From positions 9,806,017-9,870,016 of the forward strand of contig NZ_JQML01000001.1 of NCBI RefSeq assembly GCF_000744705.1: a stretch of DNA of 64,000 nucleotides. Reading direction: 5' to 3'. Below the pieces are notes generated by a model. It made no database searches. It was not told the origin of the DNA and was given only the letters and a program-made list of their open reading frames with translations. Positions within the stretch are counted from its first letter, which is position 1. Each line of letters begins with the position of its first letter. The position numbers were made by a program, and so were the translations under genes. Below, piece after piece: positions 33,265 to 52,438 of this stretch. The stretch is from Streptacidiphilus albus JL83 (GTDB taxonomy: Bacteria; Actinomycetota; Actinomycetes; Streptomycetales; Streptomycetaceae).

Positions 33265-34667
33265 TCAGCGGTCAGCGGCCCCGCGCAGCAGCGCCCGGTC
33301 GGTCAGCGGCCGGGCGGCGCCGGTGTAGGCCGTCGGGTCCAGCAACCCCTCCAACCGCCGCGCGTCCACAGCGCCGCCCGCCCCGGGGTCGCGGGCCAGC
33401 AGTTCGCCGACCGTGGCGCCCTGGCTGTGCGCTTCGAGCGACACCCGGGTGAGCAGGGCCCTGGCCGGACCGCGGCCCAGGTGCTGCGCCAGGTGCGCGG
33501 CCACCCGCTCGCTCGCCACCTGCCCCGCGGTCAGGTCCAGGTTGGCGCGCATCCTGCGCGGGTGCACGGCCAGACCCGCGGCCAGCTCGGCCGCGGCCCG
33601 GGCCGCGCCGCCGGTCAGCCGCAGCGCCTCGCGCAGCGGCTGCCACTCCGCGTGCCAGGCGCCGGCGGACCGCTCGTCCTCCGCGATCAGGCACTGCGTC
33701 AGACCGGCCGCCAGGTGCGGCACCTGCAGGGCCGCGGAGCGCATCAGCGTCGCCAGCACCGGGTTCTGCTTGTGCGGCATCGCCGAGGACACCCCGCGCC
33801 CCGCGGGAGCGGGTTCGGCCACCTCACCGGTCTCGGTCCGCGCCAGCAGCTGCACGTCCACGGCGACCTTGCCCAGCGCCGCCGCCGCGAACCCCAGCGC
33901 CTGCGCCAGGTCGGCGATCGGCGTGCGCAGCACGTGCCACGGCAGGAGCGGCACCGCGAGACCGGTCTCCTCGGCGAACACCTCGACCAGCCGCCGGGGG
34001 TAGTCCTCGTCGGCGTCCGCGTCCAGGCGGCCGTACTCCAGGTACCCGGCCAGGGTTCCGGCGGCGCCGCCGAGCGCGACCGGCAGGCCCGACCCCAGTA
34101 CCGCGGCCAGCCGGTCGCGTGCGTCCAGCACCAGGTGCCGCCAGCCGGCGGCCTTGAGCCCGAACGTGGTCGGCACGGCCTGCACCGCCACAGTCCGCCC
34201 CGCCATCGCGGTGTCGCGGTGCCGGCGCGCCAGCGCCCCCAGCGCGTCGGCGGCGCGGCCCAGGTCGGCCACGATCAGCGTCAGGGCCCGTCGAGCGACC
34301 AGCATGGCAGAATGTCCTGGCTGGTGGAGCCGCGGTGCACATAGGCGGCGGCGGCCGGGTCGACCGCCGCCACCACGGCCGTGAACGCCGCGACGAGCGC
34401 CACCACGGGATTGGCCGTCTCGCGTGCGGCCACGGCGACCGCCCGCACGTCCACGGCGCACGCACCCGCCAGACGCGTGATCAACTGCGCTGCCCCGGGC
34501 GGTACCGTGCCCAGCCTGGCCTGCGCCCGCACCAGTGCGGCCTCCGCCTCCAGCATCGCCCGCAGCCACGCGGCGTCGCCCACCGCGCGCTCCACCTCGG
34601 TGCCGGCCCGCACCGGGGACAGCAGGCCCACATCGGCCCCGGCCGCCGCGAACACCTCCCCGCTCAC
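33265..34667 (-). pseudogene. creD-like: CreD/FzmL-like nitrosuccinate lyase, frameshifted by a 7-base loss
   Basis: Known: CreD-type lyases of the fumarase/aspartase superfamily split nitrosuccinate into nitrite and fumarate. The start GTG 34667 overlaps the upstream monooxygenase stop (GTGA). The first part (GLLSPVRAGTEVERAVGDAAWL, HRGSTSQDIL) reads in one frame. The rest, from AMLVARRALTLIVADL through the loop SSAMPHKQNPV, is in another, ending at 33265. At 34306-34308 the sequence lacks exactly what would encode the conserved DTA of SQDILDTA; restoring seven bases (GACACCG) gives a 469-residue lyase. Not a homopolymer, so sequencing error is less easily invoked than for afsA or paaD. If real, nitrite release would be lost or would need another lyase. 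Confidence 0.85.
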
Positions 34668-36628
34668 GCGCCGACCCCCGCCAGCCGACCGGCCGCCGGG
34701 GCCGGGTCGCGCACCGCGGCCGGCGCCAGCGCCAGTACGGCCCGCGCGATGGCATCGGAGTCGCCCAGGGTCACGGAGTTCACTCCCGGCCGGATACCCG
34801 CGGCCGTGACCCAGTGCACCGCCTCGGTGGGCACACCGTAGGCGAAACGCCGCGGATGGGCGACGCCCCGGGCATCGAGCACCCGGTAGGGGCGCTCGCT
34901 CACCGCGAGCCCGCCGGTCTCGTACCGGCCGCCGCCCGCGCCCGCGATCCGGTGCGTGCGGCACTGGCCGGTGCCCAGCAGCCGGTGCAGCAGCGGATCG
35001 GCGGTGCGTCGCAGATCCGGCTCGGGCAGCCGGGCCTCGATCAGGACCCGGGCCCGCACCGGCGGCCCCGGCACCGCGCACACCGCCCGGAACCCGCCCC
35101 CCGCAGGATCGGGCTCCACCCGCATGTCCGGCCCCATCACCTCCAGGACACCCGCCTCGATCAGCGCGACCATCTCCTCGATCCGCGAGGCCGGCGGCCC
35201 GATCGACAAGAACGCGTTCAGCGGCGTGTACCAGCCGTCCAGGTCCTCGCGGTGCGAATCGCCGTGCAGGCCGCCGTGGTCCACCGCCAGCCGGATCTCG
35301 TTGCGCAGGTCCCGCAGCACGTCCAGGGCCGCCTTCACCGGTCCGCTGACGTTGCCCTGCCGGGCGCGGTCCACGTCCTGGCGCAGGTAGTCCAGCAGCC
35401 AGGCACGGAAAGCGGCCCGGTCCGCGAAGCGGCGCCCGGCGCCGGGCCGGGCCACACGCTCCCAGTCCCAGTGCTCCTCCCGCGGGATCGCGTACCGGGC
35501 CAGGACCTGCCCCGCCCGGCCCCCGGCGGCCAGGTAGGCGCGCTCGAAGCCCTCGCGCTCCCCGCCGCGGCCCCGCTCGGCCAGCCACGCCCCGTAGTAG
35601 ACGCCCTCCACCTCCGCCGCGATCAACGGCCACAGCTGCCGGCGGAAGTCCAGCCCCCCGCCGCCGGCCGAGGCGCCGCGCAGGCGCAGCGCGAGCTGCT
35701 CGGTCAGCAGCCGCGGCACGTGGCGCCCGTGCGCGCCCTTCTCGTTGTCCCCGCGCGCCTGGTAGGGCACCCCGCGCCGCGATCCGGCGTGCAGCCGCGG
35801 CTCACGCCCGCTCGCCCGGTACCGCAGCCGCCCCCGGGGCCCGCGCTCCAGCACACCGCCGCGACCGACCGTCAGCAGCGCCATGTGGTCGAAGAAGTTC
35901 AGCCCCAGACCGCGCAGCAGCACCCGCTCCCCGGGAGCGATGCGCGACAGGTCCAGATCGGCCGGATTGCCCGGCCGCACGTACAGCAGCCGCTGCTCCT
36001 GGGCGAACCGGGACAGGCGCCGCTCCTGCGCGGACGGACGGACGGGGACATGGCCCTGGGCGATGACCACCGCGTCCAGGTCCCTGAGCGCGGTCCCGTC
36101 CTCCAGCATGACCTGCTGCGCGCCCCCGGGACCGAGGCTGTCGTCCAGGGCGACCGCGCGGCACCGGTGCACGTGGACCCTCACGTGGGCGGGCGCCCGC
36201 GCGACGACCCGCTCGAAGGCGTCCTGCAGGTAGCGCCCGTACAGGGCCCGGGTGGGGTAGGAGTCCGGCGCCAGCGCACCGGCCTCGCGCAGTTCGCACG
36301 CCTCGACGGCGGGGGCCGGTCCGCGGGCGCCGGCGGCGGCCAGCGCCCGCGCCCACTCGTACAGGCTGGGACCGGGTTCGATCGGCCCCTCGATGTCGAC
36401 GCTGTCGTCGGTGAACACGGTCACCTGCGAGGCGACGGTGTTCATCAGCAGCTGACGGGACTGGTCGGTGCGCCACACGCGGCCGGCGCCGGGCCGGTGC
36501 GGGTCGACCACGTGCACGGTCACCTCCGCGGGGCAGGGGTGGACGCGCGCGTTCGCGCACAGGCGTTCCAGGACGGACAGGCCCCTGGGGCCGGCCCCGA
36601 CGATGCAGACCGCGAGCCTGCTGGGCAT
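34664..36628 (-). CDS. creE-like: CreE/FzmM-like FAD monooxygenase (aspartate to nitrosuccinate)
   Basis: A 654-residue protein from ATG 36628, with GGAGG upstream. It begins with the dinucleotide-binding motif CIVGAGPRGLSVLERL (NAD_binding_9 type), continues with HVVDPHRPGAGRVW, and has a second nucleotide-binding region around IAQGHVPVRPS. Length and layout match CreE and FzmM, which oxidise the amine of L-aspartate to a nitro group using NADPH and oxygen. The lyase gene follows with a 4-bp overlap, the order known from cremeomycin and fosfazinomycin clusters. Inferred: supplies nitrosuccinate for nitrite, later used for diazotisation or N-N bond formation. Confidence 0.85.
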   Translation of the reverse strand: MPSRLAVCIVGAGPRGLSVLERLCANARVHPCPAEVTVHVVDPHRPGAGRVWRTDQSRQLLMNTVASQVTVFTDDSVDIEGPIEPGPSLYEWARALAAAGARGPAPAVEACELREAGALAPDSYPTRALYGRYLQDAFERVVARAPAHVRVHVHRCRAVALDDSLGPGGAQQVMLEDGTALRDLDAVVIAQGHVPVRPSAQERRLSRFAQEQRLLYVRPGNPADLDLSRIAPGERVLLRGLGLNFFDHMALLTVGRGGVLERGPRGRLRYRASGREPRLHAGSRRGVPYQARGDNEKGAHGRHVPRLLTEQLALRLRGASAGGGGLDFRRQLWPLIAAEVEGVYYGAWLAERGRGGEREGFERAYLAAGGRAGQVLARYAIPREEHWDWERVARPGAGRRFADRAAFRAWLLDYLRQDVDRARQGNVSGPVKAALDVLRDLRNEIRLAVDHGGLHGDSHREDLDGWYTPLNAFLSIGPPASRIEEMVALIEAGVLEVMGPDMRVEPDPAGGGFRAVCAVPGPPVRARVLIEARLPEPDLRRTADPLLHRLLGTGQCRTHRIAGAGGGRYETGGLAVSERPYRVLDARGVAHPRRFAYGVPTEAVHWVTAAGIRPGVNSVTLGDSDAIARAVLALAPAAVRDPAPAAGRLAGVGA

Positions 36629-36750: not shown

Positions 36751-36753
36751 GGG

Positions 36754-38964
36754 TCAGCCGGGCACGGGCGCCGGGCGCCCGCACAGGGAGGCCACGGCGT
36801 TGGCGATGACGGTGTGTCCGGCGCCGCCGGCAGCCGTCATGATCGATTCCGGGTGGAACTGCACCGCCGCCATCGGCAGCACCCGGTGCTCCACCGCCAT
36901 CACCACCCCGTCCTCGGTGGCCGCGGTCACCCGCAGGGGATCGGGCACGGCGCCGGCCGGCGCGTGCAGCGAGTGGTAGCGGCCCACGTCGAACACCGGC
37001 GGCAGCCCCGCCAGCAACGCGCTGTCCGGCGCGAGGACCCTGACCGGCGACTGCTTGCCGTGCACCGGCCGGCTCAGCACCGACAGCGCGCCGCCGTAGT
37101 ACTCCACCAGGCCCTGCAGGCCCAGGCAGATCCCCAGGACCGGCACGCCCGCCCCCTCGGCCGCGGCCAGGGTGGCGTTCAGGTCGAAGTCCGCGGGCCG
37201 GCCCGGGCCGGGGGACAGGACCAGCAGGTCCGGCCGCTCCCGCTCCAGGGCCGCGAGGTGGTGGCCGCTGCGGTAGGTCTCGACGTGCGCGCCGGTCTGT
37301 CGCAGGTAGTCGGCCAGGCAGTGCACGAAGGAGTCGCGGTGGTCGACCAGCAGCACCCGCCGCCCGGCACCGGGCCCCCGCACCGCCGCCGCGCCCGCCG
37401 CCGCGCGCGGCGCGGCCCCGCCCGGCTCCAGCACCCGCAGCAGCGCCGCGGCCTTCAGCTCGGTCTCGCGCTCCTCCGCCGGCGGATCCGAGTCGTGCAG
37501 CAGCGTCGCGCCGGCCCGCACACTGGCCACCCCGTCGCGCACCTGGATGGTGCGCAGCGTCAGCACGGTGTCCAGGGACCCGTCGAAGCCCAGCCGGCCG
37601 ACCGCGCCGCCGTACCACCGCCGGGGCGAACGCTCCTGCGCCTCGATGAACTGGACCGCGGCGAGCTTCGGCGCACCGGTGACCGTCACCGCCCACATGT
37701 GCGCCAGGAACGCGTCCAGCGCGTCGCGGTCCGCGCGCAGCTCGCCGCGCACCCGGTCCACCGTGTGGATGACGGCCGAGTACATCTCGATCCGCCGCCG
37801 CTCGGTGACCTGGACCGTGCCCGGCACGCAGACCTTCGCCTTGTCGTTGCGGTCCACGTCCGTGCACATCGTCAGCTCGGACTCCTCCTTGGGCGACCCG
37901 AGCAGTTCGCGCACCCGCACCGCGTCCTGCAGCGCGTCCGCGCCGCGGGCGACGGTCCCGCTGATCGGGGAGGACTCCACCACCAGGCGGGCGCCGACCG
38001 GTCCCTGCTCGCGGCGGACCCCCACGAACATCTCCGGCGACGCCCCCACCAGGTACTCCCGCTCGCCGAGGTTGGCCAGCAGGCTGTGCGGTGCGGGATT
38101 GGCCTGCCGCAGCCGCCGGAACAGCTGCGAGGGGCGCCGCCCGGTGCGGTGGAACACCTGGCCCGGGACGACCTCGAACAGGTCGCCGCCGGCGAACAGC
38201 GGCATCGCGCGCCGCACCAGCTGCGCGTACTCGCCCGGCGCGTGGTCGCGCAGCTGCGGCGGGGTCCGCGGCACGAACGCCCCGACCGCGGTCGACCGCG
38301 GCAGGCCCCTGGTGCTGCGCGAGCCGTGGTGGAACTCGTAGCTGTGACGCACCGCCACATCGCGCCGCAGGTCGAAGTCGACCAGCCGGTCGGGCAGGTG
38401 CAGCACCAGGTCCCGGTCCCCGGGACCGCGGACCTGCGACAGCTCGGCCGGGTCGACCTGGAACAGCAGGTCGTAGCCGAACGCGCCGTACAGGCCGAGC
38501 AGGCCGTCCCGGGGCGAGGCCAGGGCCGCCACCAGCGCCCGCAGGGCGCCGAACACGCCCGGCTGACGGGTGCGCTCCTCCTCGGCGAAGCCCGCGACCG
38601 GCCCCGGGGCCCGGCCCACCACCCGGTCCCCGCTGCCCGCCGGCTCCAGGCACAGGTGCCCCGCCACGGCCTCGCGCAGCACCGGCAGGAGCAGCCGGCC
38701 GCGCCCGTTGAGCGCGGCCAGCGTCATCCGGTCGCCGCGCACCGCGATCTCCAGCGGCGGGTCGCTGTAGCCGACGGCCCGGTCCCGGCCCTGGAACAGC
38801 AGCATGCCGCGGCGCTGGTCCAGCTCCAGTTCCAGGGCGGCGCGGACCGAGGCGGCGCTGCCGACCCGGCGGGTCGCACGGGTGACCCGCACCCCGCAGG
38901 GCGTCAGCCACCCGGCCTGCCCGGAAGCCGCGGGCACGGGGGAGGGGACGGGCCGCGTCAGCAC
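36754..38964 (-). CDS. Fused anthranilate synthase TrpE(G)
   Basis: A 736-residue fusion from GTG 38964, which overlaps the ligase stop by 7 bp. Residues to about 530 form the chorismate-binding TrpE-type domain (SSPISGTVARGADALQD, LTMCTDVDRNDKAKVC, TVTGAPKLAAVQFIE). The last 190 or so residues form the class I glutamine amidotransferase with nucleophile Cys (GICLGLQG) and His-Glu (FHPES). Known: makes anthranilate from chorismate and glutamine; PhzE, of the same build, stops at aminodeoxyisochorismate. Context: next to an anthranilate-type CoA ligase and close to a DAHP synthase, favouring anthranilate. A primary tryptophan role is unlikely in this operon. Confidence 0.9.
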   Translation of the reverse strand: MLTRPVPSPVPAASGQAGWLTPCGVRVTRATRRVGSAASVRAALELELDQRRGMLLFQGRDRAVGYSDPPLEIAVRGDRMTLAALNGRGRLLLPVLREAVAGHLCLEPAGSGDRVVGRAPGPVAGFAEEERTRQPGVFGALRALVAALASPRDGLLGLYGAFGYDLLFQVDPAELSQVRGPGDRDLVLHLPDRLVDFDLRRDVAVRHSYEFHHGSRSTRGLPRSTAVGAFVPRTPPQLRDHAPGEYAQLVRRAMPLFAGGDLFEVVPGQVFHRTGRRPSQLFRRLRQANPAPHSLLANLGEREYLVGASPEMFVGVRREQGPVGARLVVESSPISGTVARGADALQDAVRVRELLGSPKEESELTMCTDVDRNDKAKVCVPGTVQVTERRRIEMYSAVIHTVDRVRGELRADRDALDAFLAHMWAVTVTGAPKLAAVQFIEAQERSPRRWYGGAVGRLGFDGSLDTVLTLRTIQVRDGVASVRAGATLLHDSDPPAEERETELKAAALLRVLEPGGAAPRAAAGAAAVRGPGAGRRVLLVDHRDSFVHCLADYLRQTGAHVETYRSGHHLAALERERPDLLVLSPGPGRPADFDLNATLAAAEGAGVPVLGICLGLQGLVEYYGGALSVLSRPVHGKQSPVRVLAPDSALLAGLPPVFDVGRYHSLHAPAGAVPDPLRVTAATEDGVVMAVEHRVLPMAAVQFHPESIMTAAGGAGHTVIANAVASLCGRPAPVPG

Positions 38965-40688
38965 GGGGACCCGCTTTCGCCCAGGCCGCGCGCGTCCCCG
39001 CCCCGCAGGGCGGCGCGCTGCAGCTTGCCGGTGCTGCTGTGCGGCAGCGCGCCGACGAACTCGACCACGCGCGGATACTTGTAGGGCGCGATCTGCTGCT
39101 TGACGAAGCCCTGCAGCTCCGCGGCCAGCTCCGGCCCGGGACGCGCGCCCGCGGCGGGCTGCACGAACGCCTTCACCACGCTGCCGCGCCGCGGGTCGGG
39201 CACGCCGACCACCGCGCACAGCGCCACGGCGGGGTGCAGCAGCAGGGCCTGCTCGACCTCGGGCGCGGCGATGTTGTACCCCGAGGAGACGATCATGTCG
39301 TCGGACCGGGCCCGGTACCAGAAGTAGCCGTCCGCGTCGCGGACACAGGTGTCGCCGGTCAGGTTCCAGCCCCGCTCGACCTGCGTGCGCTGCCGCGGGT
39401 CGGCCAGGTAGCGGCAGCCGGTCGGCCCCTGGACCGCGAGCAGGCCCGGCACGCCGTCGGGCACCGCGGCGCCGGAGGCGTCCACGACCTTGGCCCGGTA
39501 GCCCGGCACGACCCGGCCGGTGGCGCCGGGACGGATGTCGTCCCCGGCGGCGGCGATGAACACGTGCAGCATCTCGGTCGAGCCGATCCCGTCGATGATG
39601 CGCACACCGGTCGCTTCGCGAAAGGCGCGCCAGGTCGCCTCCGGCAGCGGCTCACCGGCCGACACGCAGCTGTGCAGCGTCCGCAGGTCCGTCCTCCGCG
39701 CGAACTCCAGCACCGCCCGGTAGGCGGTCGGGGCGGTGAACAGCGTGGTGATCCGGAACCGGGGCACCGCCGCGAACAGGGCGCGCGGGCTGCCGTCCTC
39801 CAACAGCACCGCCTGGGCGCCGGCGCGCAGCGGGAACACCAGTAGACCGCCCAGCCCGAAGGTGAACGCCAGCGGCGGACTGCCGGCGAACACGTCGTCG
39901 GGCCCGGGCCTGAGCACGTGCGCGCCGAACGTGTCGGCGATGGCCAGCACGTCGCGGTGGAAGTGCATGGTGGCCTTGGGCACCCCGCTGGTGCCCGAGG
40001 TGAACGCGATCAGCGCCACGTCGTCGGCGGCGGTCGCCGCGGCCCGGAAGCCGGCCGCCAGGTGCCGGGCGCGCCGGCCCAGGTCGCCGCCGTCCGCCCC
40101 CGGGCCGAAGAGCACCGTGGGCACACCGGTGCGCGCCCGCTCCCAGTCCTGGTCGAACCGCTCGTCGCACAGGGCCAGCTGCACCTGCGCCCGCTCGGCG
40201 ACGGCGCGCAGCTCCGCGGGGCGCAGCAGCGGCACCGTCGTCACCACCACCGCGCCGGCCTTGAGCACCGCCAGCCAGCACACGGCCAGCCAGGGGGTGT
40301 TGGGCCCCCGCAGCAGCACGCGGTTGCCGGAGGCCAGTCCGGCCTCCTGGACCAGGAACCGGGCCACCCGGTCGACCCGGTCCAGGACCTGCGCGTAGGA
40401 CCAGGTCACCCGGTACTGGTCGGTCAGGCACGGGCGGTCCGCGCCGAACCGGCCGATGGAGCCGTCGAGCAGCTCACGCGCACAGTTCAGCCGCTGCGGG
40501 TACCGCAGCCCCGGCAGGTCGAAGCACAGGTCGGGCCACTCCTGCCGCGGTGGGAGATGATCGCGGGCGAAAGTGTCGGCGTGCCCGGACGGGGACAGGG
40601 CCCGAGCGGGCCGAACCGGTCCGGGCGCGGCGCCCGGACCGGGACGCGCCGGTCCCGGGACCGGCGCCGACAGTGCCAGTGAAGCCAT
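38958..40688 (-). CDS. Anthranilate/benzoate-type acyl-CoA ligase
   Basis: A 576-residue ANL-superfamily enzyme from ATG 40688, behind AAGGAGG. The region FARDHLPPRQEWPDL near the N-terminus recalls 2-aminobenzoate-CoA ligases. The P-loop is TSGTSGVPKATMHFH, the A5 motif DGIGSTEMLH, and the catalytic lysine is in STGKLQRAAL. Known: ATP-dependent formation of aryl-CoA. Its gene overlaps that of anthranilate synthase and follows a PaaI-like thioesterase. Inferred substrate: anthranilate, giving anthraniloyl-CoA as the CoA thioester that Paa-type epoxidases require. Benzoate or another aryl acid cannot be excluded. Confidence 0.85.
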   Translation of the reverse strand: MASLALSAPVPGPARPGPGAAPGPVRPARALSPSGHADTFARDHLPPRQEWPDLCFDLPGLRYPQRLNCARELLDGSIGRFGADRPCLTDQYRVTWSYAQVLDRVDRVARFLVQEAGLASGNRVLLRGPNTPWLAVCWLAVLKAGAVVVTTVPLLRPAELRAVAERAQVQLALCDERFDQDWERARTGVPTVLFGPGADGGDLGRRARHLAAGFRAAATAADDVALIAFTSGTSGVPKATMHFHRDVLAIADTFGAHVLRPGPDDVFAGSPPLAFTFGLGGLLVFPLRAGAQAVLLEDGSPRALFAAVPRFRITTLFTAPTAYRAVLEFARRTDLRTLHSCVSAGEPLPEATWRAFREATGVRIIDGIGSTEMLHVFIAAAGDDIRPGATGRVVPGYRAKVVDASGAAVPDGVPGLLAVQGPTGCRYLADPRQRTQVERGWNLTGDTCVRDADGYFWYRARSDDMIVSSGYNIAAPEVEQALLLHPAVALCAVVGVPDPRRGSVVKAFVQPAAGARPGPELAAELQGFVKQQIAPYKYPRVVEFVGALPHSSTGKLQRAALRGGDARGLGESGSPC

Positions 40689-40711: not shown

Positions 40712-41251
40712 TCAGCGGCCCTGGCCCCGGACGGCCACGCAGGTCATCCGGGCGCTGCAGACCAGCCGCTGCGACTCGTCGTGGACCGAGATCTCGTAGG
40801 TCGCGTGGGTGCGCCCCAGACGCAGCGCCCGTGCGGTGCCGGTGACCCGACCCGACGTCACCGGACGCAGGTGCGTGGCGCTGAGCTCGGCACCGGCCGC
40901 GGCGCCGGGGGCGAAGTGCAGACAGGCCCCGACCGATGCCAGGGTCTCCGCCAGGGCCAGGGAGGCGCCGCCGTGCAGCACCCCGAACGGCTGGCGGTTG
41001 CCGACCACCGGCATCGTCCCGACCACCAGCTCCGGTCCACCGGACGTCACCGTGATCCCGAGCCGCCGTTCCAGCTCCGACACCGGCACCGACACCGGCA
41101 CCGACACCGGCACCGACACCGGCACCGACACCGGCCCCGGCCCCGGCACCGGCCCCGGCACCGGCACCGGCCCTGGCACCGGCCCCGGCCCCGGCCCCGG
41201 CCCGCTCCACGGCGCCACCTGCGCCCCCACCGTCCATCCCCGCTCGGCCAT
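40712..41251 (-). CDS. paaI-like: PaaI-type hotdog thioesterase with a repetitive N-terminal insert
   Basis: A 179-residue protein from ATG 41251 (GGGGAG upstream). The C-terminal 120 residues are a PaaI hotdog domain with the active-site segment GVLHGGASLALAETLASVG. Between residues 16 and 58 sits a low-complexity stretch of Gly-Pro pairs and Ser-Val-Pro repeats, encoded by 12-bp DNA repeats (CACCGGCACCGA). Known: PaaI hydrolyses stalled or dead-end aryl-CoA thioesters and protects CoA pools. First gene of the minus operon with the ligase. Inferred: releases the ring-modified acid from CoA, or proofreads. Confidence 0.85.
   Translation of the reverse strand: MAERGWTVGAQVAPWSGPGPGPGPVPGPVPVPGPVPGPGPVSVPVSVPVSVPVSVPVSELERRLGITVTSGGPELVVGTMPVVGNRQPFGVLHGGASLALAETLASVGACLHFAPGAAAGAELSATHLRPVTSGRVTGTARALRLGRTHATYEISVHDESQRLVCSARMTCVAVRGQGR
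41081..41206. repeat. Coding minisatellite in the thioesterase gene
   Basis: CACCGGCACCGA-type 12-bp repeats, then GGCACCGGCCCC-type repeats, about 125 bp in all. The unit length is a multiple of three, so copy-number change keeps the reading frame. Confidence 0.85.
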
Positions 41252-44111: not shown

Positions 44112-45244
44112 CAGCCCCGGCGCCGGCGCGCCCCACGGCGCGCACCCGCTTCCACCCGCTGACGGTCACCGCCGTGGACCCCGCCGCCGCCGACGCCAGC
44201 GCCGCCCGGATCACCCTGCGCGTGCCGGACGGCCTGCGCACCCTGTTCGCCTTCACCCCCGGGCAGCACCTCACCGTCCGCGCCGCCCTCCACGGCGCCG
44301 AGACACGCCGCTCCTACTCGCTGTGCTCCACCCCCGCCGAACTCGAACGCGACGGCACCCTGCGCATCGGCGTGCGCGCCGTCCCCGGCGGCCGCTTCTC
44401 CCACTACGCCACCCGCCTCCTGCAGCCGGGCGAGGACCTGCACGCCCGGCCCGCCACCGGACGCTTCACCACCACCATCCCCGCCGGCCGGCCGCGCCGC
44501 ATCGCGGCACTGGCCGCCGGCTCGGGCATCACCCCGCTCCTGTCACTGCTCACCGCGGTCCTGGACACGGAACCGCAGAGCACCGTCACCCTGCTGTACG
44601 GCAACCGCTGCGCGGACGCGGCGATGTTCACCGAGGAGCTGGCCGACCTCAAGGACCGCCACCGGCACCGGATCCGCGTCCTGCACGTCTTCTCCCGCGA
44701 GGACCAGCGGGCGGGGCTCGCCACCGCACGCCTGGACCACCGGGGCCTGCGCGCCCTGCTGCCGCGCCTGCTGCCCGCCGGCGCCGACGAGTGGTTCGTC
44801 TGCGGGCCGCCGGGCATGGTCGCCGCCGCCGAACTGGTACTGGCGGACCTGGGGGTGGCGCCGGCAGCGGTGCACACCGAACAGTTCACCGCAGCAGCCC
44901 CCGCCCCCGCGCCCGCACCGGCCCCCGCGCCCCGCCCGCACGCCGCCGGCGGCGACACGGCGCGGATGTGCGAGCTGACCGTGCGGCTGGACGGCCGCAG
45001 CAGCACCGTCCGGGTACCGGTGGGCACCAACGTGCTGGACGCCGCCCTGTCCGCGCGGCCCGAGACGCCGTACTCCTGCCGCAGCGGCGTGTGCGCCACC
45101 TGCCGCGCCAAGGTCGTCCTGGGCCGCGCCCAGTGCCCGGGCACGCCGGCGCTGGGAGCCGACGAGGTTGCCGAGGGCTACGTGCTGACCTGCCGGAGCA
45201 CGGCGCCGGACGAGCGGTTGACCGTGGACTACGACGCCCTGTGA
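44108..45244 (+). CDS. paaE: Phenylacetyl-CoA epoxidase reductase subunit E
   Basis: A 378-residue protein from ATG 44108. FAD-binding (RRSYSLCSTP) and NAD-binding (AGSGITPLLSLL, FVCGPPGMV) domains precede a plant-type [2Fe-2S] ferredoxin domain with all four cysteines (CRSGVCATC ... LTCRS). An Ala/Pro linker, APAPAPAPAPAPR, joins them. Known: passes electrons from NADPH to the diiron centre of PaaA. Last of the coupled paa genes. Confidence 0.95.
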   Translation: MTAPAPARPTARTRFHPLTVTAVDPAAADASAARITLRVPDGLRTLFAFTPGQHLTVRAALHGAETRRSYSLCSTPAELERDGTLRIGVRAVPGGRFSHYATRLLQPGEDLHARPATGRFTTTIPAGRPRRIAALAAGSGITPLLSLLTAVLDTEPQSTVTLLYGNRCADAAMFTEELADLKDRHRHRIRVLHVFSREDQRAGLATARLDHRGLRALLPRLLPAGADEWFVCGPPGMVAAAELVLADLGVAPAAVHTEQFTAAAPAPAPAPAPAPRPHAAGGDTARMCELTVRLDGRSSTVRVPVGTNVLDAALSARPETPYSCRSGVCATCRAKVVLGRAQCPGTPALGADEVAEGYVLTCRSTAPDERLTVDYDAL

Positions 45245-45378: not shown

Positions 45379-46659
45379 ATGAGCATCAGCCAACCGACAC
45401 CGCCCGCCGCCGGCGGGAGGGGACAGGCCGGCCTGCCCCGGGCCCTGGTCCTGCTTCTGGCCGCCGCCTGCGGCGTGATCGTCGCCAACAACTACTACGC
45501 CCAGCCGCTGCTGCCCGCACTGCAGCACGCGTTCGGCACCAGCGCGGGCACGGCCGGACTGTGCGTCACGCTCAACCAGCTCGGCTACGCCGCCGGGCTG
45601 GTGTTCATCGTCCCGCTGGGCGACCTCGCCGGCCGCCGCCGCCTGGTGACGCTCCTGCTGGCACTGGACGCGGTGGTCCTCGCCGCAGCGGCCGCGGCCC
45701 CCAGCGCCTGGGCGCTGATAGCCCTGCTGACCGCCGCCGGCACCGCGGGCACGGCCATCAACGTCCTGATCCCCACCGCGGCCTCGCTCGCCGACGACAG
45801 CCAGCGCGGCCGGGTCGTGGGCACCTTGATGACCGGTCTGCTGCTGGGCATCCTGCTCGCACGCACCGTGGCCGGAGCCATCGACTCCCTGGTCGGCTGG
45901 CGCCCGGTGTACGGCGTCGCCGCCGTCGCCGCGGCCGCGCTCGCGCTGGCCCTGCACGCCAAGCTCCCGGAGCTGCCCGCCGCCCCCGGCGCGCGCTACC
46001 CGCAACTGCTCGCCTCGGTGGTCACCCTGGTACGCACCCAGCCGTTCCTGCGCCGGCGCATGGCCGCCGGGGCCCTGGGCTTCGGCGCCTTCCAACTGCT
46101 GTGGACCGCACTGCCGTTCATGCTCAGCGACAAGCCCTACGCGTACGCCCCCGCGGTGATCGGCCTGTTCGGCCTGCTCGGCGCCGCCGGCGCCGCGGCC
46201 GCCCAACCCGCCGGCCGGCTGCAGGACCGCGGCATCGCCCACGGCGCCACCGGCGTGCTGCTGGTGCTGCTGGCCGGATCGTGGGCCCTGCTCGCCGAAG
46301 GCAGGAACCTGCTGCTGCTGGCCGCCGGCATCGTCCTGCTCGACATCGGCGTCCAGGGCGTGCACGTGCTCAACCAGGGACGCATCTACCTGTTCCCGGC
46401 GCAGGTACGGGCCCGCGCCACCACCGCCTACATGTCCGCCTACTTCCTGGGCGGCGCCGCCGGAGGGGCCGTCGCCGTCGCCCTGTACCCGGCCTGGGGC
46501 TGGGACGGGGTGTGCGCGGCCGGCGCCGTCATGGCCCTGGCCGGCCTGGCGCTGTGGGCGGGCGACCGCCGGGCCGGGCCGGCGCCGGCCGCCACGACTT
46601 CCCTTCCCCGTCCCGCGGACGCGGCCCCTGCGGCCGGCGTCGGCAGCGGGACCGGCTGA
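45379..46659 (+). CDS. MFS exporter (YnfM/12-TM type)
   Basis: A 426-residue transporter from ATG 45379 with about 12 hydrophobic segments. The first helix region has VANNYYAQPLLPAL, and the loop 2-3 motif is GDLAGRRRLVTL. The last 30 residues are a Pro/Ala-rich cytoplasmic tail. Known: this group exports small molecules by proton antiport. It follows the paa genes by 134 bp and has a hairpin after it. Inferred: exports the cluster product or a toxic intermediate. Confidence 0.85.
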   Translation: MSISQPTPPAAGGRGQAGLPRALVLLLAAACGVIVANNYYAQPLLPALQHAFGTSAGTAGLCVTLNQLGYAAGLVFIVPLGDLAGRRRLVTLLLALDAVVLAAAAAAPSAWALIALLTAAGTAGTAINVLIPTAASLADDSQRGRVVGTLMTGLLLGILLARTVAGAIDSLVGWRPVYGVAAVAAAALALALHAKLPELPAAPGARYPQLLASVVTLVRTQPFLRRRMAAGALGFGAFQLLWTALPFMLSDKPYAYAPAVIGLFGLLGAAGAAAAQPAGRLQDRGIAHGATGVLLVLLAGSWALLAEGRNLLLLAAGIVLLDIGVQGVHVLNQGRIYLFPAQVRARATTAYMSAYFLGGAAGGAVAVALYPAWGWDGVCAAGAVMALAGLALWAGDRRAGPAPAATTSLPRPADAAPAAGVGSGTG

Positions 46660-46801: not shown

Positions 46802-47650
46802 ATGCGTATCTTCATCGCCGGCGCCACCGGCGCGATCGGCTCCGTCCTGGTTCCGCTGCTGCTCGACGCGGGACACACGGTCACCGGAAGCACCCGCACC
46901 GAGCAGGGCCTGGCCGAACTCGCGGCACGGGGCGCGAACGGCGTCCGGCTCGACGTGTTCGACCGCGACGCCGTCGCCGCCGCCGTGGCCGCCGACGCCC
47001 CGGACGCGGTGATCCACCAGCTGACCGCCCTGGGCGCGGGCAACCCCGCCGACAACGCCCGCATCCGCATCGAGGGCACCCGCAACCTGGTGGACGCCGC
47101 CAAGCGCGCCGGCGTCCGGACGATGATCGCCCAGTCCATCGCCTGGGCCTACGAGCCCGGCCAGGGGCCGGCGGGCGAGGCCACTCCGCTGGACACCGGC
47201 GCACCCCAGCCGCGGCAGACCACCCTCGGCGGCATCACCGCTCTGGAGGGCGCCGTCAGCGAGATCGACCGGCACGTGATCCTGCGGTTCGGCGCCTTCT
47301 ACGGACCCGGCACCTGGTACGCGCCCGGCAGCCTGATGGCCGACAGGCTCACCGGGGGCACGCTGCCCGCCAACGACGCGGTCAGCTCCTTCGTGCACGT
47401 GCGCGACGCGGCGCAGGCCACCGTCCAGGCCCTGGACTGGCCCAGCGGCCCCGTCAACATCGCCGACGACCACCCGGCCCCGGCCCACACGTGGGTTCCC
47501 GCGCTCGCGGCCGCCCTGGACCGGCCCGCCCCGCCCCGCACCCGCGGCGGCGCCGCGTGGGAGCGCGGCGCACTCAACACCCGCGCCCGGTCCCTGGGCT
47601 GGACCCCGCAGCACAGCACCTGGCGCACCGGCTTCGCCGACCAGCGCTGA
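46802..47650 (+). CDS. NAD(P)-dependent epimerase/reductase-like protein (extended SDR)
   Basis: A 282-residue protein from ATG 46802 (AAGGAG 11 nt upstream). The Rossmann motif GATGAIGS is at residues 7-14 and DVFDRDAVAAAV follows. SIAWAYEPG occupies the usual catalytic region without a clear YxxxK, so it may be an atypical SDR. FVHVRDAAQATVQAL is conserved in this family. Known: family members epimerise or reduce sugars, or reduce double bonds and ketones. Inferred: a reductase for a ring intermediate or for a diazonium-derived species. No direct evidence chooses between them. Confidence 0.7.
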   Translation: MRIFIAGATGAIGSVLVPLLLDAGHTVTGSTRTEQGLAELAARGANGVRLDVFDRDAVAAAVAADAPDAVIHQLTALGAGNPADNARIRIEGTRNLVDAAKRAGVRTMIAQSIAWAYEPGQGPAGEATPLDTGAPQPRQTTLGGITALEGAVSEIDRHVILRFGAFYGPGTWYAPGSLMADRLTGGTLPANDAVSSFVHVRDAAQATVQALDWPSGPVNIADDHPAPAHTWVPALAAALDRPAPPRTRGGAAWERGALNTRARSLGWTPQHSTWRTGFADQR

Positions 47651-47705: not shown

Positions 47706-48962
47706 TCAACCCGCGCCCGGCAGGGCCGACGGCAGCCAGGACCCGGCGAGCCCCGCGATGTCCTGGACCAACTCCACCGCCTGCCGGGCGTTGAGCCGAG
47801 GATCGCACGCACTCTCGTAGCGCACCCCCAACGCCCCCTCCGCGACCGGGCGCTCGCGCCCGCCCACGCACTCGGTCACCTCAGCGCCCGTCAACTCCAG
47901 GTGCACCCCGCCGGCATGGGTGCCCAGCGCCCGGTGGACCTCGAAGAACCCGCAGACCTCCTCCCGGATCCGATCCACCCACCTGGTCTTGCGCCCGCCC
48001 GCGCCCTGCACCGTATTGCCGTGCATCGGATCGCACACCCACACCACGCCCGCCCCGCTCGCCCGCACCCGCTCCACCAGCTCCGGCAACCGGTCACGCA
48101 CCCGCCCGGCCCCCATCCGCGCGATCAGCGTCACCCGGCCGGGCAGCCGCTGCGGATCCAGGCGCTCGACCAGCGCCACCGCCTCGTCCGCACCGACCGA
48201 CGGACCCAGCTTCACCGCCACCGGATTGCCGATCCGTGCCGCGAACTCCACATGCGCCCCGTCCAGACGCCGGGTCCGCTCACCGACCCACACCATGTGC
48301 CCCGACAGGTCGTACGGGACACCACCGACCCCGTCGAACCTGGTCAGCCCGGACTCGTACGGCAGCAGCAGCGCCTCGTGACTGGCGAACACCGGCCCCA
48401 CCCCGGCCCGCCGCACCGCCGCCAGCGTCGCCGCAGAGGCCCGGTACACCTCCATCAGCCGCCGCGGATCCGCGACCCGCGCCGCCGCGGTGAACGCGGC
48501 ACCGTTGACCGCGTCACCCCGGTAGACCGGAAGCACCTGCGCACCGCGCTGCTCCACCGCACTGGAACGCGGCTTCGCGTACTGGCCCGCGAGGCGACCC
48601 ACCGTCACCACCGGCAGCGTCCAGGCGTCCTCCAGCACGTTCGCCATGCGCCGCAGCAGCCGGGCGGTGGACACGGCCCGCCGCGGCGCCTGCGGATCCA
48701 GGACCTCGGCGCAGTCGCCGCCCTGCAGCAGGAACGCCTCACCGCGCGCCACCGCCGCCAACTGCTCCCGCAGGGCGTCGCACGCCGGGACGTCCACCAG
48801 CGCGGGAGCGGCCGACAGCGCGGCCTGCACCCGCTGCACGGCCGCGGGGTCGGGCCAGGGGGGCTGCTGGTCGGCGGGCAGGGCGCTCCAGCTGTCGCGG
48901 ACGCGGGGCGGGGCCAGGTCGGTCAGGGTCATCGGTTCGGTTGACGGCGTCCGGCCTGCCAC
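47706..48962 (-). CDS. Class II (plant-type) DAHP synthase
   Basis: A 418-residue protein from GTG 48962, chosen for GGAAGGAAG upstream; ATG 48932 is possible but lacks a ribosome site. Class II hallmarks are FLLQGGDCAEVL, RLAGQYAKPRSS, WVGERTRRLDGAHVEF, VWVCDPMHGNT and GGVHLELTG. Known: condenses phosphoenolpyruvate and erythrose 4-phosphate, the first shikimate step; cluster copies (such as PhzC) raise flux and often escape feedback. Inferred: feeds chorismate to the TrpE(G) of this cluster. Last gene of a minus operon with the adenylate-forming enzyme and flavin hydroxylase. Confidence 0.95.
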   Translation of the reverse strand: MAGRTPSTEPMTLTDLAPPRVRDSWSALPADQQPPWPDPAAVQRVQAALSAAPALVDVPACDALREQLAAVARGEAFLLQGGDCAEVLDPQAPRRAVSTARLLRRMANVLEDAWTLPVVTVGRLAGQYAKPRSSAVEQRGAQVLPVYRGDAVNGAAFTAAARVADPRRLMEVYRASAATLAAVRRAGVGPVFASHEALLLPYESGLTRFDGVGGVPYDLSGHMVWVGERTRRLDGAHVEFAARIGNPVAVKLGPSVGADEAVALVERLDPQRLPGRVTLIARMGAGRVRDRLPELVERVRASGAGVVWVCDPMHGNTVQGAGGRKTRWVDRIREEVCGFFEVHRALGTHAGGVHLELTGAEVTECVGGRERPVAEGALGVRYESACDPRLNARQAVELVQDIAGLAGSWLPSALPGAG

Positions 48963-49085: not shown

Positions 49086-50681
49086 TCAGCGCGCGGGTGC
49101 AGTCCGGGCCGGGGCACCGGCCCGGGGGAGGCCGGCGGCGTCGCCCGCCTCCAGCAGGGCGATCAGCTCCGGGCGGCGGACCTTCCAGGTCGAGGTCCGC
49201 GGAACCTGGTCGAACGGCAGCTGCCGCACCGGCCCCAGCGCCGGCATCCCCGCGGTCGCGCGCCTCCAGCGCGCGGCGTCCAGGGCCGCATCCCCGCGCG
49301 TGCACACCACCGGTACCGCCACACCGTCCGCCCCGGCCACGATCACGACCTCCCGCAGCTCCGGCAGACGCTCCATCAGGTCGTCCTCCAGCCGCAGACC
49401 GGAGTCGAGGTCCTCGACCCGGTCGATCTCGCGGTCCAGCAGGTGGACGCGGCCCAGGGAGTCCTTGAAGCCCATGTCGCCCATGCGCCACCACCGGCCG
49501 TTGAGGTTCGCCCGGAACCGCGGGTCCTCGCCCAGGTAGGTCAGGGCCCGGGTACGGCTGCTGACCTCGATGTGCCCGGTGGTGCCGGCCGCCACCGGGA
49601 CACCGTCCTCGCCGACGATCCGCAGCCGGGTGACCCCGGGAAGCCCGCGGCCGACCCTGCGCCCGTCCAGCCGGTCCAGGTCCCGGCGGCGGTACCAGGT
49701 GCCGGTGACCGGCCCGGTCTCCGACTGCCCGTACAACTGGATGAACGCCGGCCGGCGCCGCGCCGAGGCGTTCAGCAGCGTCTGGACCGTGCGCGGGTGC
49801 ATCGCGTCGAACGTGGCGCTGAAGTAGCGCACGCTCGACAGCGGCCGCCCGTCGTAGCCGGCCAGCTCCTCCCAGTCGATGTACACGTTCGGCTGCGTCT
49901 CCACCGCCCCGGGGCGGTGCTCGGCGAACAACGGCCCGATCGACTGCGGACTGCCGTCGACCGCGACCAGCAGCGGTCTGCCGTGGCTCAGGCCCAGGTC
50001 CAGCGCACTGTAGAAGCGCGCGTGCACGAAGCTGACGCACAGCGCGACCGTCTCGCGCCGCCAGGTCGCCGCGGCCACCAGCTTCTGCAGCCGCAGCCGC
50101 TGCCACAGCGCATCCGGCGACTGCACCACCAGCTTGGGCACACCGGTGGTGCCCGAGGTGTGGCTGATGAAGGCCGGCTCGTGCACCCCCGGCACCCGCA
50201 CCCCGCCCAACGACGCCACCGCCAGACCGCCCAGCGCCCGCCCGGCGGCCGGCGGCTGCCCCGCGACCACCAGCACCTGGCGCGCGGCGGAGGGCGAGAA
50301 GCCCGCGAGCGCCAGCTTCCGCCCGTCGGTCACCAGCCAGGGCCGTTCGAGGCGCCCCAGCAGCCGTGCCGCGACAGCGCCCTCCAACTGGGGCGACAGC
50401 AGCGCCGGCACGGCACCGACCCGCTGGACCGCGGCAGCCAGCAGCGCGATGTCGAAGTTGTCGCACTTGTACACGGCGACGTGGTCGCCCGGCAGGACAC
50501 CGGCACTGATCAGGCGCCCGGCCGTCTCGCGCACCAGGGCGGCGAGCCGACCCACCGTCAACCGCGTCCCCTCGCCCGGCGCGAGGTCCAGCGGCCGGTC
50601 CAGGAACACCGGCGCCCGGCCGTGCCTGGCCGCCGCCCGGTCGAACATCAAACCTATGTAGAAGCCCTTGGGTCCCGGCAT
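49086..50681 (-). CDS. Class I adenylate-forming enzyme, candidate diazotase or acyl-CoA ligase
   Basis: A 531-residue ANL enzyme from ATG 50681 (GGGGAGAGA upstream). The P-loop is HTSGTTGVPKLVVQS and A5 is QLYGQSETGPVTG. The hinge region is GDMGFKDSLGRVHLLDREID, with LLDREID in place of the usual GRxDD. The C-terminal lysine motif is RTSTWKVRR, with Trp where Gly is normal. Known: CreM and CmaA6, in the same superfamily, use ATP and nitrite to diazotise aryl amines. With a nitrite-forming pair nearby, a diazotase role is the natural hypothesis. Alternatives are an ordinary aryl- or fatty-acid ligase. Confidence 0.75.
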   Translation of the reverse strand: MPGPKGFYIGLMFDRAAARHGRAPVFLDRPLDLAPGEGTRLTVGRLAALVRETAGRLISAGVLPGDHVAVYKCDNFDIALLAAAVQRVGAVPALLSPQLEGAVAARLLGRLERPWLVTDGRKLALAGFSPSAARQVLVVAGQPPAAGRALGGLAVASLGGVRVPGVHEPAFISHTSGTTGVPKLVVQSPDALWQRLRLQKLVAAATWRRETVALCVSFVHARFYSALDLGLSHGRPLLVAVDGSPQSIGPLFAEHRPGAVETQPNVYIDWEELAGYDGRPLSSVRYFSATFDAMHPRTVQTLLNASARRRPAFIQLYGQSETGPVTGTWYRRRDLDRLDGRRVGRGLPGVTRLRIVGEDGVPVAAGTTGHIEVSSRTRALTYLGEDPRFRANLNGRWWRMGDMGFKDSLGRVHLLDREIDRVEDLDSGLRLEDDLMERLPELREVVIVAGADGVAVPVVCTRGDAALDAARWRRATAGMPALGPVRQLPFDQVPRTSTWKVRRPELIALLEAGDAAGLPRAGAPARTAPAR

Positions 50682-50792
50682 CTCATCTCTCTCCCCGCCG
50701 CACGGCGGTTCCTCGGATGCTCGGATGCTGCCGCCCCGCGCCCGGCCCGCACCGGACCTGACACCAACCTGCGCCCCCCGCCCCCGCCCTGA

Positions 50793-50802
50793 CAGCTAGC
50801 TG
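50793..50802. promoter_or_regulatory. CAGCTAGCTG palindrome upstream of the adenylate-forming enzyme
   Basis: Exact copy of the palindrome at 41358, within GACAGCTAGCTG, 112 bp before the start codon at 50681 and between it and the flavin hydroxylase stop. It suggests common control of the paa, ligase and diazotase-candidate genes. Confidence 0.55.
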
Positions 50803-50866: not shown

Positions 50867-52438
50867 TCAGCCCACCGCCGCACCCGGCACGGCAGCGCCG
50901 CAGGCCCGCTCCAGCACCGCCACCACCTCGCGGGCCAGCGGCGCACGCACACTCGCGTACAGGTGCCCGTCGGGACGCACCACCGCGGCCACCGCCCGCC
51001 CGCCCAGCGCGTCCGCCAGCGGACCGCGGGCCTGACTGGGAGTGCACACCACCTCGGCCCGCTCCCCGACGGCCGCACGGATCACCGCGCACGTCTCCCG
51101 CCACCCGCGCGGCACGGTACGACCCGCGTGCAGCAGCACGGCATGACGCTCGCCGCCGATCCGCGCCCAGGAGGCACCGGTCAACGCCGCCCCGGCGCCG
51201 AGCAGCACCGGAAGCCGGTCCCCGGGCACCGCCACCGCGCGCCGCGCGGGCGAGCCGGCACCCCCCTGCGCCCGGTAGGTGGCGGTCAGCTGACCGAGCG
51301 CCGGCGCCAGGGTCCGCTGCAGCACACCGCTGCGCGCGGCCGCCCGCACCGCAGCGTCGCGCACGGCGATCTGCGCCGGCCCGGTCAGCGCCCCCCACCG
51401 GGTCTGCAACGAGGTGGAGCGGGTCACGGCGTGCACGGCCGAGCGGCGCTCGGCGTCGTAGCTGTCCAGGACCGACTCGTCCAGGACCCCGCGCAGCACC
51501 CCGCCCAGCTTCCAGCCCAGGTTCGCCGCATCCAGCAGCCCGGTGTTCATGCCCTGGCCGCCGGCCGGGCTCATCAGGTGCGCCGCGTCCCCGGCCAGGA
51601 ACGCCCGCCCCTGGCGGAACCGCGCCGCGCTGCGCACGTGCACCTGGAACACCGTGCTGAAGCGCAGCTCCCCCAACTGCACAGCGCCCGGCGCCCGCTC
51701 GTCGAGCGCCCGCTGGAAGAACCCGTGGCCGGGGGTGGTGCCGGCCATGTCGGGTCCCACCGCCACCGCGATCCGGTGGGCGGACGAGGAGATCGGCGCC
51801 AGGGCCACCCCGCCACGGGCGGTGTAGCAGTAGGCGACCTGGTCCGAGACGACGTCACCGGACAGCTCGGCGTCGGTGATGGCGTAGCCGACCGGCAGCC
51901 TGGTCCCGTCGAACCCGATGCCCAACTCCTTGCGCACCGTGCTGTGCGCCCCGTCGGCACCCACCACCCACAGGGCCTCGACCTCCTCGACCACCCCCTC
52001 GGCCAGGGTCAGCCGCAGCCTCGCCCGCGGCCCCGAGGCGTCCAGCGCCTCCAGCTGCACCCCGTGCTCGACCTTCCCGCCGAGTTCGGCCAGGCGCTGC
52101 ACCAGCACCTCCTCCGTGCGGTCCTGCGGCAGGCCGACCGCGAACGGGTACGGGGTGTTCCCCAACTGGTTCAGCCACGCCGTCGCCAGGTGCCGGCGCT
52201 CCGAGTAGAACGCCACCCCCTGCATCCGGTGGCCCTCCTCCACCAGGCGGTCCGCGACCCCGATACGGCGCAGCAGCTCCAGCGGACGCGGCCAGATCGT
52301 CGTCGCCTTCGAATGGGCGGAATGCCCGCGCGCGGAATCGATGATCCGCACGGGAACACCCTGGCCGAGCAATTCACAGGCGATGACCAGGCCAACCGGC
52401 CCGGCGCCAACCACCACCACAGGATCGACATTCGACAT
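50867..52438 (-). CDS. Group A FAD aromatic hydroxylase
   Basis: A 523-residue protein from ATG 52438, with GAGGAG upstream. The GXGXXG motif is VVVVGAGPVGLVIACELL, the DG motif is VVGADGAHSTVRKELG, and the GD motif is RAFLAGDAAHLMSPAGGQGM. The thioredoxin-like C-terminal domain of the PgaE/MhpA type is present but degenerate. Known: NAD(P)H-dependent hydroxylation of phenolic rings; related enzymes hydroxylate tropone rings in Streptomyces tropolone clusters. First gene of the operon to DAHP synthase. A TAGCGT -10 box (52503-52498) is about 60 bp upstream. Inferred: late ring hydroxylation. Confidence 0.9.
   Translation of the reverse strand: MSNVDPVVVVGAGPVGLVIACELLGQGVPVRIIDSARGHSAHSKATTIWPRPLELLRRIGVADRLVEEGHRMQGVAFYSERRHLATAWLNQLGNTPYPFAVGLPQDRTEEVLVQRLAELGGKVEHGVQLEALDASGPRARLRLTLAEGVVEEVEALWVVGADGAHSTVRKELGIGFDGTRLPVGYAITDAELSGDVVSDQVAYCYTARGGVALAPISSSAHRIAVAVGPDMAGTTPGHGFFQRALDERAPGAVQLGELRFSTVFQVHVRSAARFRQGRAFLAGDAAHLMSPAGGQGMNTGLLDAANLGWKLGGVLRGVLDESVLDSYDAERRSAVHAVTRSTSLQTRWGALTGPAQIAVRDAAVRAAARSGVLQRTLAPALGQLTATYRAQGGAGSPARRAVAVPGDRLPVLLGAGAALTGASWARIGGERHAVLLHAGRTVPRGWRETCAVIRAAVGERAEVVCTPSQARGPLADALGGRAVAAVVRPDGHLYASVRAPLAREVVAVLERACGAAVPGAAVG

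Follow-up and report, generated by a model that had tools for sequence, protein, structure and literature searches.

What would a bacterium make with genes for anthranilate, for nitrite and for a phenylacetyl-coenzyme A (CoA) type ring oxygenase set side by side? The question is raised by a gene cluster of Streptacidiphilus albus JL83, contained in the window analysed here, a stretch of 64,000 nucleotides (contig NZ_JQML01000001.1, positions 9,806,017 to 9,870,016 of the forward strand). The genes are genuine, and the cluster that they make up is conserved (Table 1). We regard it as an even question whether the cluster supplies, oxygenates and diazotises anthranilate. An earlier note on this DNA had proposed that a single pathway combines aspartate-nitrosuccinate nitrite, an anthraniloyl thioester and oxygenation of the Paa type, and this proposal gained from the nitrosuccinate lyase score of CreD in two related clusters, the anthranilate synthase score of TrpEG and the grouping of PaaA with AntH, as described below. 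A frame-composition gene finder and Pfam and NCBIfam scans of the window recovered every gene class that the note had named. An MFS transporter and an AvaA7-like reductase were absent from its list.

Conservation of the gene set

A search with the window's PaaA covered 394 genomes of the family, its own included. Among the matches listed outside that genome, identity was 79% in two genomes of another genus (G117 and G123) and at most 74% for the remaining ones. The 40 kb around the PaaA match in each of these two genomes served as comparison regions. Fourteen genes recurred jointly in both, at 54-83% identity: those for CreD, CreE, the fused anthranilate synthase TrpEG, a first ligase (Lig1), a thioesterase, PaaA to PaaE, the MFS transporter, the reductase, a 3-deoxy-D-arabino-heptulosonate 7-phosphate (DAHP) synthase and a second ligase-like enzyme (Lig2). 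A LuxR-like gene was also present in both clusters. Since the fourteen genes and the LuxR-like gene recur together, the arrangement exceeds chance. Both related clusters contained an extra GntR-aminotransferase gene.

The group A hydroxylase listed in the earlier note is indeed present. When the genes called in the two 40-kb comparison regions were searched at an expect value (E) of 1e-5, neither this gene nor the SnoaL-like gene of the window had a match. The hydroxylase was rejected as a core gene on this ground, and probably does not belong to the core. It lies divergent from an EmrB-type efflux gene and the SnoaL-like gene (50867-54814), perhaps as a separate unit.

Lig2 was found at 67% identity in two of the 35 genomes of the relatives' genus, again G117 and G123, with a third match at 54% in G078. 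At E 1e-165 no further genome emerged among 394 of the class, a sample that may overlap the others. In a collection of 84,980 species, 22 loci (L015-L036) held a Lig2 relative at 49-58% identity. The scan was not accepted as a census, since it topped out at 58% against 67% in G117 and G123; it therefore missed clusters like theirs, or the collection does not hold them.

Predicted anthranilate supply and a ring oxygenase related to AntH

The fused TrpEG scored over the cut-off of the TIGR01815 anthranilate synthase model. Two other precursors were considered and rejected. One was 3-hydroxyanthranilate formed via isochorismatase, as no such gene occurred among the Pfam hits of the window's cluster. 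The other was 4-aminobenzoate, made as in the locus L022 described below, given that TrpEG has the TrpE-TrpG order and exceeds the anthranilate cut-off, and that Aminotran_4 was not among the cluster hits. The first solved relative of Lig1 was the anthranilate-CoA ligase 4wv3 (271 bits), followed by the benzoate-CoA ligase 2v7b (241.5 bits). Lig1 has FTFG as in 4wv3, at a site where 2v7b and three ligases of loci with Lig2 relatives have AYG. This provides modest evidence that Lig1 may be an anthranilate-CoA ligase. The thioesterase had been described as PaaI-like. That name was given up, as the protein scored 31.8 bits on the PaaI model against a cut-off of 118.9, below its scores on the EntH (87.9) and MenI (78.5) models, which also lay under their cut-offs.

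PaaA, PaaB and PaaC exceeded their NCBIfam cut-offs (280, 85.45 and 133.35 bits) and would be named phenylacetyl-CoA epoxidase by that database, while PaaE stayed under its own. The earlier note had spoken of a Paa-type ring epoxidase and suggested a phylogeny of PaaA as a check. We built a maximum-likelihood tree of 35 PaaA proteins, comprising the 3 of the clusters, 13 AntH and 19 others that included the E. coli protein (the 19 taken by sequence, irrespective of their genomic surroundings). A branch with support of 97/96 separated the cluster PaaA and AntH, which lay together, from the 19 others; within their shared side the two formed separate groups (100/99 and 100/100). The bootstrap of this tree had yet to converge, and the branches of E. 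coli and L001 were long. The predicted oxygenase thus kept its place in the Paa family with AntH as its kin, and lost the description of a plain phenylacetyl-CoA epoxidase.

The residues pointed in the same direction. In E. coli numbering, positions 96, 118, 122, 125 and 164 were common to all three cluster PaaA and all 13 AntH, and shared by none of the 19 others; positions 122 and 125 are close to Asp126, one of the iron ligands. All 35 proteins kept the six iron ligands together with Lys68 and Glu49. Position 108 was Ile in the three cluster PaaA, in contrast to Phe in all of the others and all AntH. In phenylacetyl-CoA epoxidase Phe108 orients the phenylacetyl group, according to the part of the structural report available (PMC4498308). 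Positions 105, 107, 159, 189 and 193 of the cluster PaaA differed from both AntH and the other group. The loss of Phe108 and the other changes imply that the substrate is probably not phenylacetyl-CoA. These comparisons set the oxygenase apart from ordinary phenylacetyl-CoA epoxidases, and an anthraniloyl thioester would be the natural candidate for its substrate.

AntHIJKL makes 3-aminosalicylate from anthraniloyl-S-AntG via a 1,2-shift, as described in the accessible part of PMC3869250. Twelve further AntH-type loci were fetched from 20 matching genomes among 295 examined, and all twelve had AntG- and AntF-like neighbours. At the three cluster PaaA loci (L037-L039) AntG had no match, and AntF had only weak matches at L038 and L039 (26% and 30%).

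Two more paa operons were found in the genome of the window, at 1.09 Mb and 0.84 Mb. The latter locus (genome positions 831000-870999) contains a tryptophan dioxygenase, a kynureninase domain, a hydrolase, an acyl carrier protein (ACP), a ligase, a phosphopantetheinyl transferase, a zinc-type dehydrogenase and a PaaABCDE-type oxygenase, and adjoins open frames of 1312 and 3005 amino acids. Judged by the genes scanned it looks like an antimycin-like cluster, and its PaaA was taken as an AntH.

Predicted nitrite formation, the candidate diazotase and the reductase

CreE matched 8cp2 over query residues 5-635 with E 8.9e-208, and this was its only solved relative at E 1e-6. We take 8cp2 to be an aspartate N-hydroxylase; the entry itself is labelled FAD-binding protein. 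The CreD proteins of both relatives exceeded the nitrosuccinate lyase cut-off (760.6 and 748.3 against 650 bits). The CreE- and CreD-like genes of the earlier note are therefore both there, with the qualification that the window's creD is split between two frames.

A profile built from 15 relatives of Lig2 ranked the solved chains 9bq0 and 8tf7 of Tri17 first, at 154.5 bits. Tri17 depends on ATP and uses nitrite, and it also converts anilines to diazo compounds, according to the part of a review available (PMC11705231). A His two residues before the Ser-Gly of the P-loop was present in all 15 aligned Lig2 sequences, in all five AvaA6-like proteins and in the printed Tri17 rows. The same position was Tyr or Phe in each of 23 other ligases compared and His in none, in a count that left out sequences not fitting the search pattern, AntF among them. 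Within the three cluster genomes, only AvaA6-like proteins (448-506 bits) outscored Lig2 on the AvaA6 model. The window genome has three such AvaA6-like genes (genome positions 8594734-8596320, 138284-139867 and 9365082-9366656; 448-468 bits, under the cut-off), one of which has a second CreE/CreD pair no more than 10 kb away.

The Lig2 relatives at L015-L036 adjoin both CreE and CreD in 4 of the 22 stretches, and a further one adjoins CreE at L008. No Paa protein matched at E 1e-6 in any of the 22 stretches, which are 3.9-21.6 kb long. Their hosts are Lentzea, Saccharothrix, Actinokineospora, Streptomyces and others, and the Lig2 relative is paired with an aryl ligase. The core genes of L022 (Lentzea terrae) were scanned and encode a PabAB-type synthase, a ligase, an FAD hydroxylase, an Aminotran_4 (PabC-type) protein and CMD proteins. 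By sequence grouping, the FAD hydroxylase family occurred in 21 stretches and the Aminotran_4 family in 18. These clusters look like a predicted 4-aminobenzoate diazotisation pathway.

The nearest curated model of the reductase was AvaA7, a denitrifying reductase, at half of its cut-off. On this model, five proteins of six genomes scored 193-229 bits and the next 132.5; three of the five were the cluster reductases. The gene is kept in all three clusters.

In order, the genes are the LuxR-like gene (+), followed by CreD, CreE, TrpEG, Lig1 and the thioesterase (-) and by PaaA to PaaE, the MFS transporter and the reductase (+). The DAHP synthase, Lig2 and the hydroxylase (-) come next, and then the MFS efflux gene and the SnoaL-like gene (+). 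The palindromes that the earlier note saw as shared between operons exist as two exact 12-base copies of GACAGCTAGCTG, one in the gap between the thioesterase and paaA genes and one before Lig2. Their statistical support proved weak, since the 10-base core with one mismatch permitted gave 3 matches against 1.0 expected, and at least 3 in 9 of 100 shuffles. They were rejected as strong evidence. A perfect inverted repeat with 12-base arms (47669-47697) separates the reductase gene from the DAHP synthase gene that converges on it, and is perhaps a bidirectional terminator.

Table 1. Features of the cluster, in window coordinates
Feature	Position	Strand	Evidence
LuxR-like regulator, weak helix-turn-helix	32379..33143	+	GerE 18.8 bits, cut-off 23.5; homologues 35% and 37% identical in the two related clusters
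CreD-like nitrosuccinate lyase, two frames (34281-34667, 33265-34305)	33265..34667	-	NF052556 167.6 and 520.4 bits
CreE-like L-aspartate N-hydroxylase	34664..36628	-	8cp2 695 bits; two relatives 62% and 64% identical
Fused anthranilate synthase TrpE(G)	36754..38964	-	TIGR01815 870.9 bits, cut-off 739.15; 69% in both relatives
Lig1, anthranilate/benzoate-CoA-ligase-like, start inferred	38958..40688	-	Best solved relative 4wv3
Hotdog thioesterase, start uncertain	40712..41251	-	4HBT; TIGR00369 93.3 bits
Divergent promoter region with palindromic element 41356-41367	41252..41464	.	
PaaA-like diiron oxygenase subunit, AntH-related	41465..42556	+	TIGR02156 454.6 bits; tree; Phe108 replaced
PaaB-like subunit	42553..42852	+	TIGR02157 124.4 bits
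PaaC-like subunit	42849..43595	+	TIGR02158 261.3 bits
PaaD-like maturation protein, changing frame at some point in about 43897-44001	43592..44111	+	FeS_assembly_P in one frame, zinc-ribbon part in another
PaaE-like reductase	44108..45244	+	TIGR02160 343.5 bits, under cut-off 420.8
MFS transporter, probable exporter	45379..46659	+	PF07690; 67% and 70% in relatives
NAD(P)-dependent reductase, AvaA7 the nearest curated model	46802..47650	+	NF058621 197.8 bits, cut-off 400; 70% and 69% in relatives
Class II DAHP synthase	47706..48962	-	PF01474 491.4 bits
Lig2, diazotase-like ATP-dependent enzyme	49086..50681	-	Profile of 15 relatives, Tri17 structures first; P-loop His
Second copy of palindromic element, upstream of Lig2	50791..50802	.	
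FAD_binding_3 group A hydroxylase, probably not core	50867..52438	-	PF01494

Proposed pathway, its rivals and known systems

In the pathway that we propose, the DAHP synthase would boost the shikimate pathway, and TrpEG would make anthranilate from chorismate. Lig1 would convert anthranilate to anthraniloyl-CoA. A PaaABC(D)E-type complex, as a CoA-linked cousin of AntHIJKL, would epoxidise the ring, and the thioester would shift as in antimycin to give 3-aminosalicyloyl-CoA, from which the thioesterase would release 3-aminosalicylate. Nitrite would be formed from aspartate by CreE and CreD, and Lig2 would use it with ATP to produce an ortho-quinone diazide (3-diazosalicylate). From this, salicylate may be formed by the AvaA7-like reductase, with hydride taking the place of N2, and the MFS protein would export the product. 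We favour 3-aminosalicylate because AntHIJKL makes it and because it belongs to the ortho-aminophenols, which are the substrate class of the deamination diazotases by a reading of the structures in the accessible part of PMC10777205. It resembles in this the known substrates of CreM, AvaA6 and CmaA6. From the genes and their relatives we infer the substrate of Lig1, the regiochemistry of oxygenation, the order of steps, diazotisation by Lig2, what becomes of the diazo group, the final product, and with them every step past anthraniloyl-CoA. The whole would amount to a new bacterial route from chorismate to salicylate or 3-diazosalicylate, through CoA-bound AntHIJKL-type epoxidation, acyl shift and diazotisation with enzymatic nitrite, with loss of N2 in the salicylate version; this we hold tentatively, with confidence somewhat short of even. 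Reductive deamination, which the earlier note had offered as one outcome, is possible given the conserved diazotase-like ligase and AvaA7-like reductase, neither of which reaches the cut-off of its curated model.

Several observations weigh against this pathway. Lig1 has a later motif of benzoate-ligase type (GSTEMLH, not GCTENFH), has 36% identity with the anthranilate ligase and 35% with the benzoate ligase, and scored under the benzoate-CoA ligase family cut-off (311.2 against 375.25 bits). The cluster PaaA is unlike AntH at position 108 as well as at the five positions peculiar to it (105, 107, 159, 189 and 193), and no carrier protein was found among the scanned cluster genes, whereas AntHIJKL acts on an ACP thioester. 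The Lig2 profile placed FadD 3 bits behind Tri17, and for Lig2 alone Tri17 (77.1 bits) came after both a FadD ligase (92.9) and 4-chlorobenzoate-CoA ligase (78.1). Its best NCBIfam model was a fatty-acid ligase (96.1 bits), and it scored about 80.2-81.6 bits on the AvaA6 model, whose cut-off of 975 lies above the AvaA6-like comparison proteins too. Neither CreE nor CreD was found in 18 of the 22 stretches with Lig2 relatives, or in the 20 kb around a 41% Lig2 relative of the window genome (L078). The two highest scorers on the AvaA7 model were non-cluster proteins, at genome positions 6845334-6846251 of the window genome and at 247233-248132 of contig C150 in G001; the 20 kb around each gave no match to CreD, CreE or Lig2. 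As these reductases score higher, the AvaA7 score was rejected as proof of denitrification, and a denitrifying role rests on synteny and not on sequence. Finally, the window's copies of creD and paaD have broken reading frames.

Three other readings of the chemistry were weighed. The differences from AntH mean that substrate pose and regiochemistry may differ, and the Paa-type complex might be a net ring hydroxylase giving 3- or 5-hydroxyanthraniloyl-CoA with no acyl shift. Diazotisation of the hydroxyanthranilate would follow, as happens in tasikamide, and the resulting quinone diazide would either persist or undergo reduction to 3-hydroxybenzoate. The loss of Phe108 and the five changes absent from AntH would permit another pose, and Aha11 of tasikamide diazotises an alkyl 5-hydroxyanthranilate (PMC11705231, part available); the nearest characterised relatives, the AntH proteins, nevertheless make 3-aminosalicylate, and we find this alternative rather unlikely. 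A second reading agrees with the proposed pathway up to the diazo step and keeps the N-N bond in the end product, as 3-diazosalicylate or a coupled hydrazone; the reductase would have another role, such as reducing the oxygenated ring or serving detoxification. It accords with a reductase far under the AvaA7 cut-off that has non-cluster relatives, with the conserved MFS transporter and with the diazo, hydrazone and hydrazide end products known from the nitrite pathway. No coupling-partner gene was common to the gene lists of the three clusters, though, and the reductase is conserved in all of them, which leaves the retained bond on the unlikely side while still deserving attention. Ring expansion of an anthraniloyl-CoA epoxide to an oxepin, tropone or azepine, an outcome suggested in the earlier note, has in its favour the homology of PaaA to the 1,2-phenylacetyl-CoA epoxidase with its diiron site kept. 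It appears very improbable to us. No PaaG or PaaZ occurred among the Pfam hits of the cluster genes, and the AntHIJKL product is benzenoid. The tropone route proceeds through PaaZ-ECH and then a condensation in which chain C2 attacks the C8 aldehyde (PMC7497051, part available, numbering as interpreted). By this interpretation C2 comes from the acetyl part of phenylacetate, and a benzoyl-type acid has no such carbon. Ring expansion was thus rejected on gene content and carbon count.

The remaining alternative concerns the strain rather than the chemistry. In the window, positions 10-123 and 127-464 of NF052556 fall in different frames of creD, and the alignment shows a 10-base gap relative to both relatives, whose creD is intact. 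The first domain of PaaD is in one frame and the zinc-ribbon part in another, with the switch in a C-rich linker; this gene is also intact in the relatives. Because of these frame changes the window's cluster may be either damaged or wrongly assembled. This genome has three CreD relatives, of which the window copy and the 8.41-Mb copy are split and the 9.35-Mb copy is whole; two in G117 and one in G123 are whole. The 8.41-Mb copy (L080, genome positions 8407509-8408842) runs in two frames and has no CreE match in the 20 kb around it. It is conceivable that creD and paaD are pseudogenes of a decayed cluster and that nothing is made here, whatever intact clusters make. Besides the frame changes themselves, the position of the cluster, 58-77 kb from the end of the single 9,915,093-base contig, would suit decay, and the creD gap lies outside any homopolymer, which agrees less well with assembly error. 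Conversely, the remaining core genes are open, the finding that a second CreD is split and a third whole fits assembly error, and other CreD and PaaD genes of the genome could substitute. We consider decay a serious possibility, but the less probable case.

The cluster was compared with known systems as the available parts of their sources describe them. Antimycin biosynthesis, AntFGHIJKLN(P) (PMC3869250), shares ligase-activated anthranilate, PaaABCDE-type oxygenation and the PaaA/AntH branch with its common residues. It draws anthranilate from tryptophan, whereas TrpEG would serve here; no ACP was found here, the ligase is of CoA type, Phe108 is lost, and the product is proposed to enter diazotisation instead of passing to a non-ribosomal peptide synthetase. 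The avenalumic acid (ava) and p-coumaric acid (cma) clusters (PMC10777205) resemble it in CreE/CreD nitrite, an ATP-dependent diazotase, an AvaA7-type reductase and diazotisation-dependent deamination. They use 3-amino-4-hydroxybenzoate and a type II polyketide synthase, in contrast to anthranilate, a Paa-type oxygenase and no polyketide synthase here, and Lig2 and the reductase are distant from their counterparts. In the tasikamide aha system a CreM-like enzyme uses nitrite from CreE/CreD to diazotise a hydroxylated anthranilate; the system's product is a hydrazone coupled to a peptide, and the comparison follows the description in a review (PMC11705231), in whose available text "Paa" occurs 0 times. 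The penzonemycin cluster pzm (PMC9323291) likewise has a DAHP synthase, a TrpE-like synthase, CreD, CreE, a CreM-like enzyme and an MFS transporter, but makes 3-hydroxyanthranilate via an isochorismatase and a dehydrogenase, and the part of that source available names no Paa genes. Triacsin Tri17 (8tf7, 9bq0; PMC11705231) provides the best solved relatives of the Lig2 profile and has the P-loop His. It belongs to another cluster, its native substrate is a hydrazone, and other ligases outscore it for the window Lig2 alone. The loci L015-L036 have the related Lig2 and, in some stretches, CreE/CreD, but 4-aminobenzoate-type genes replace TrpEG (in L022, the one locus scanned) and Paa genes do not accompany them. 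Both halves of the proposed pathway are known kinds of chemistry, and their combination looks new. In agreement with the earlier note, no described cluster with this gene set was found in the open-licence full texts searched, among the matches listed.

If the proposed pathway is true, an antimycin-type anthraniloyl oxygenase and nitrite-dependent diazotisation would be joined in a small pathway without an assembly line. A stand-alone, CoA-based homologue of AntHIJKL would ease in vitro study of the acyl-shift mechanism. The Lig2 family with its P-loop His would widen the diazotases to anthranilate-derived, and perhaps 4-aminobenzoate-derived, substrates. Diazo products have their use as reactive natural products, and aromatic diazotases theirs as biocatalysts.

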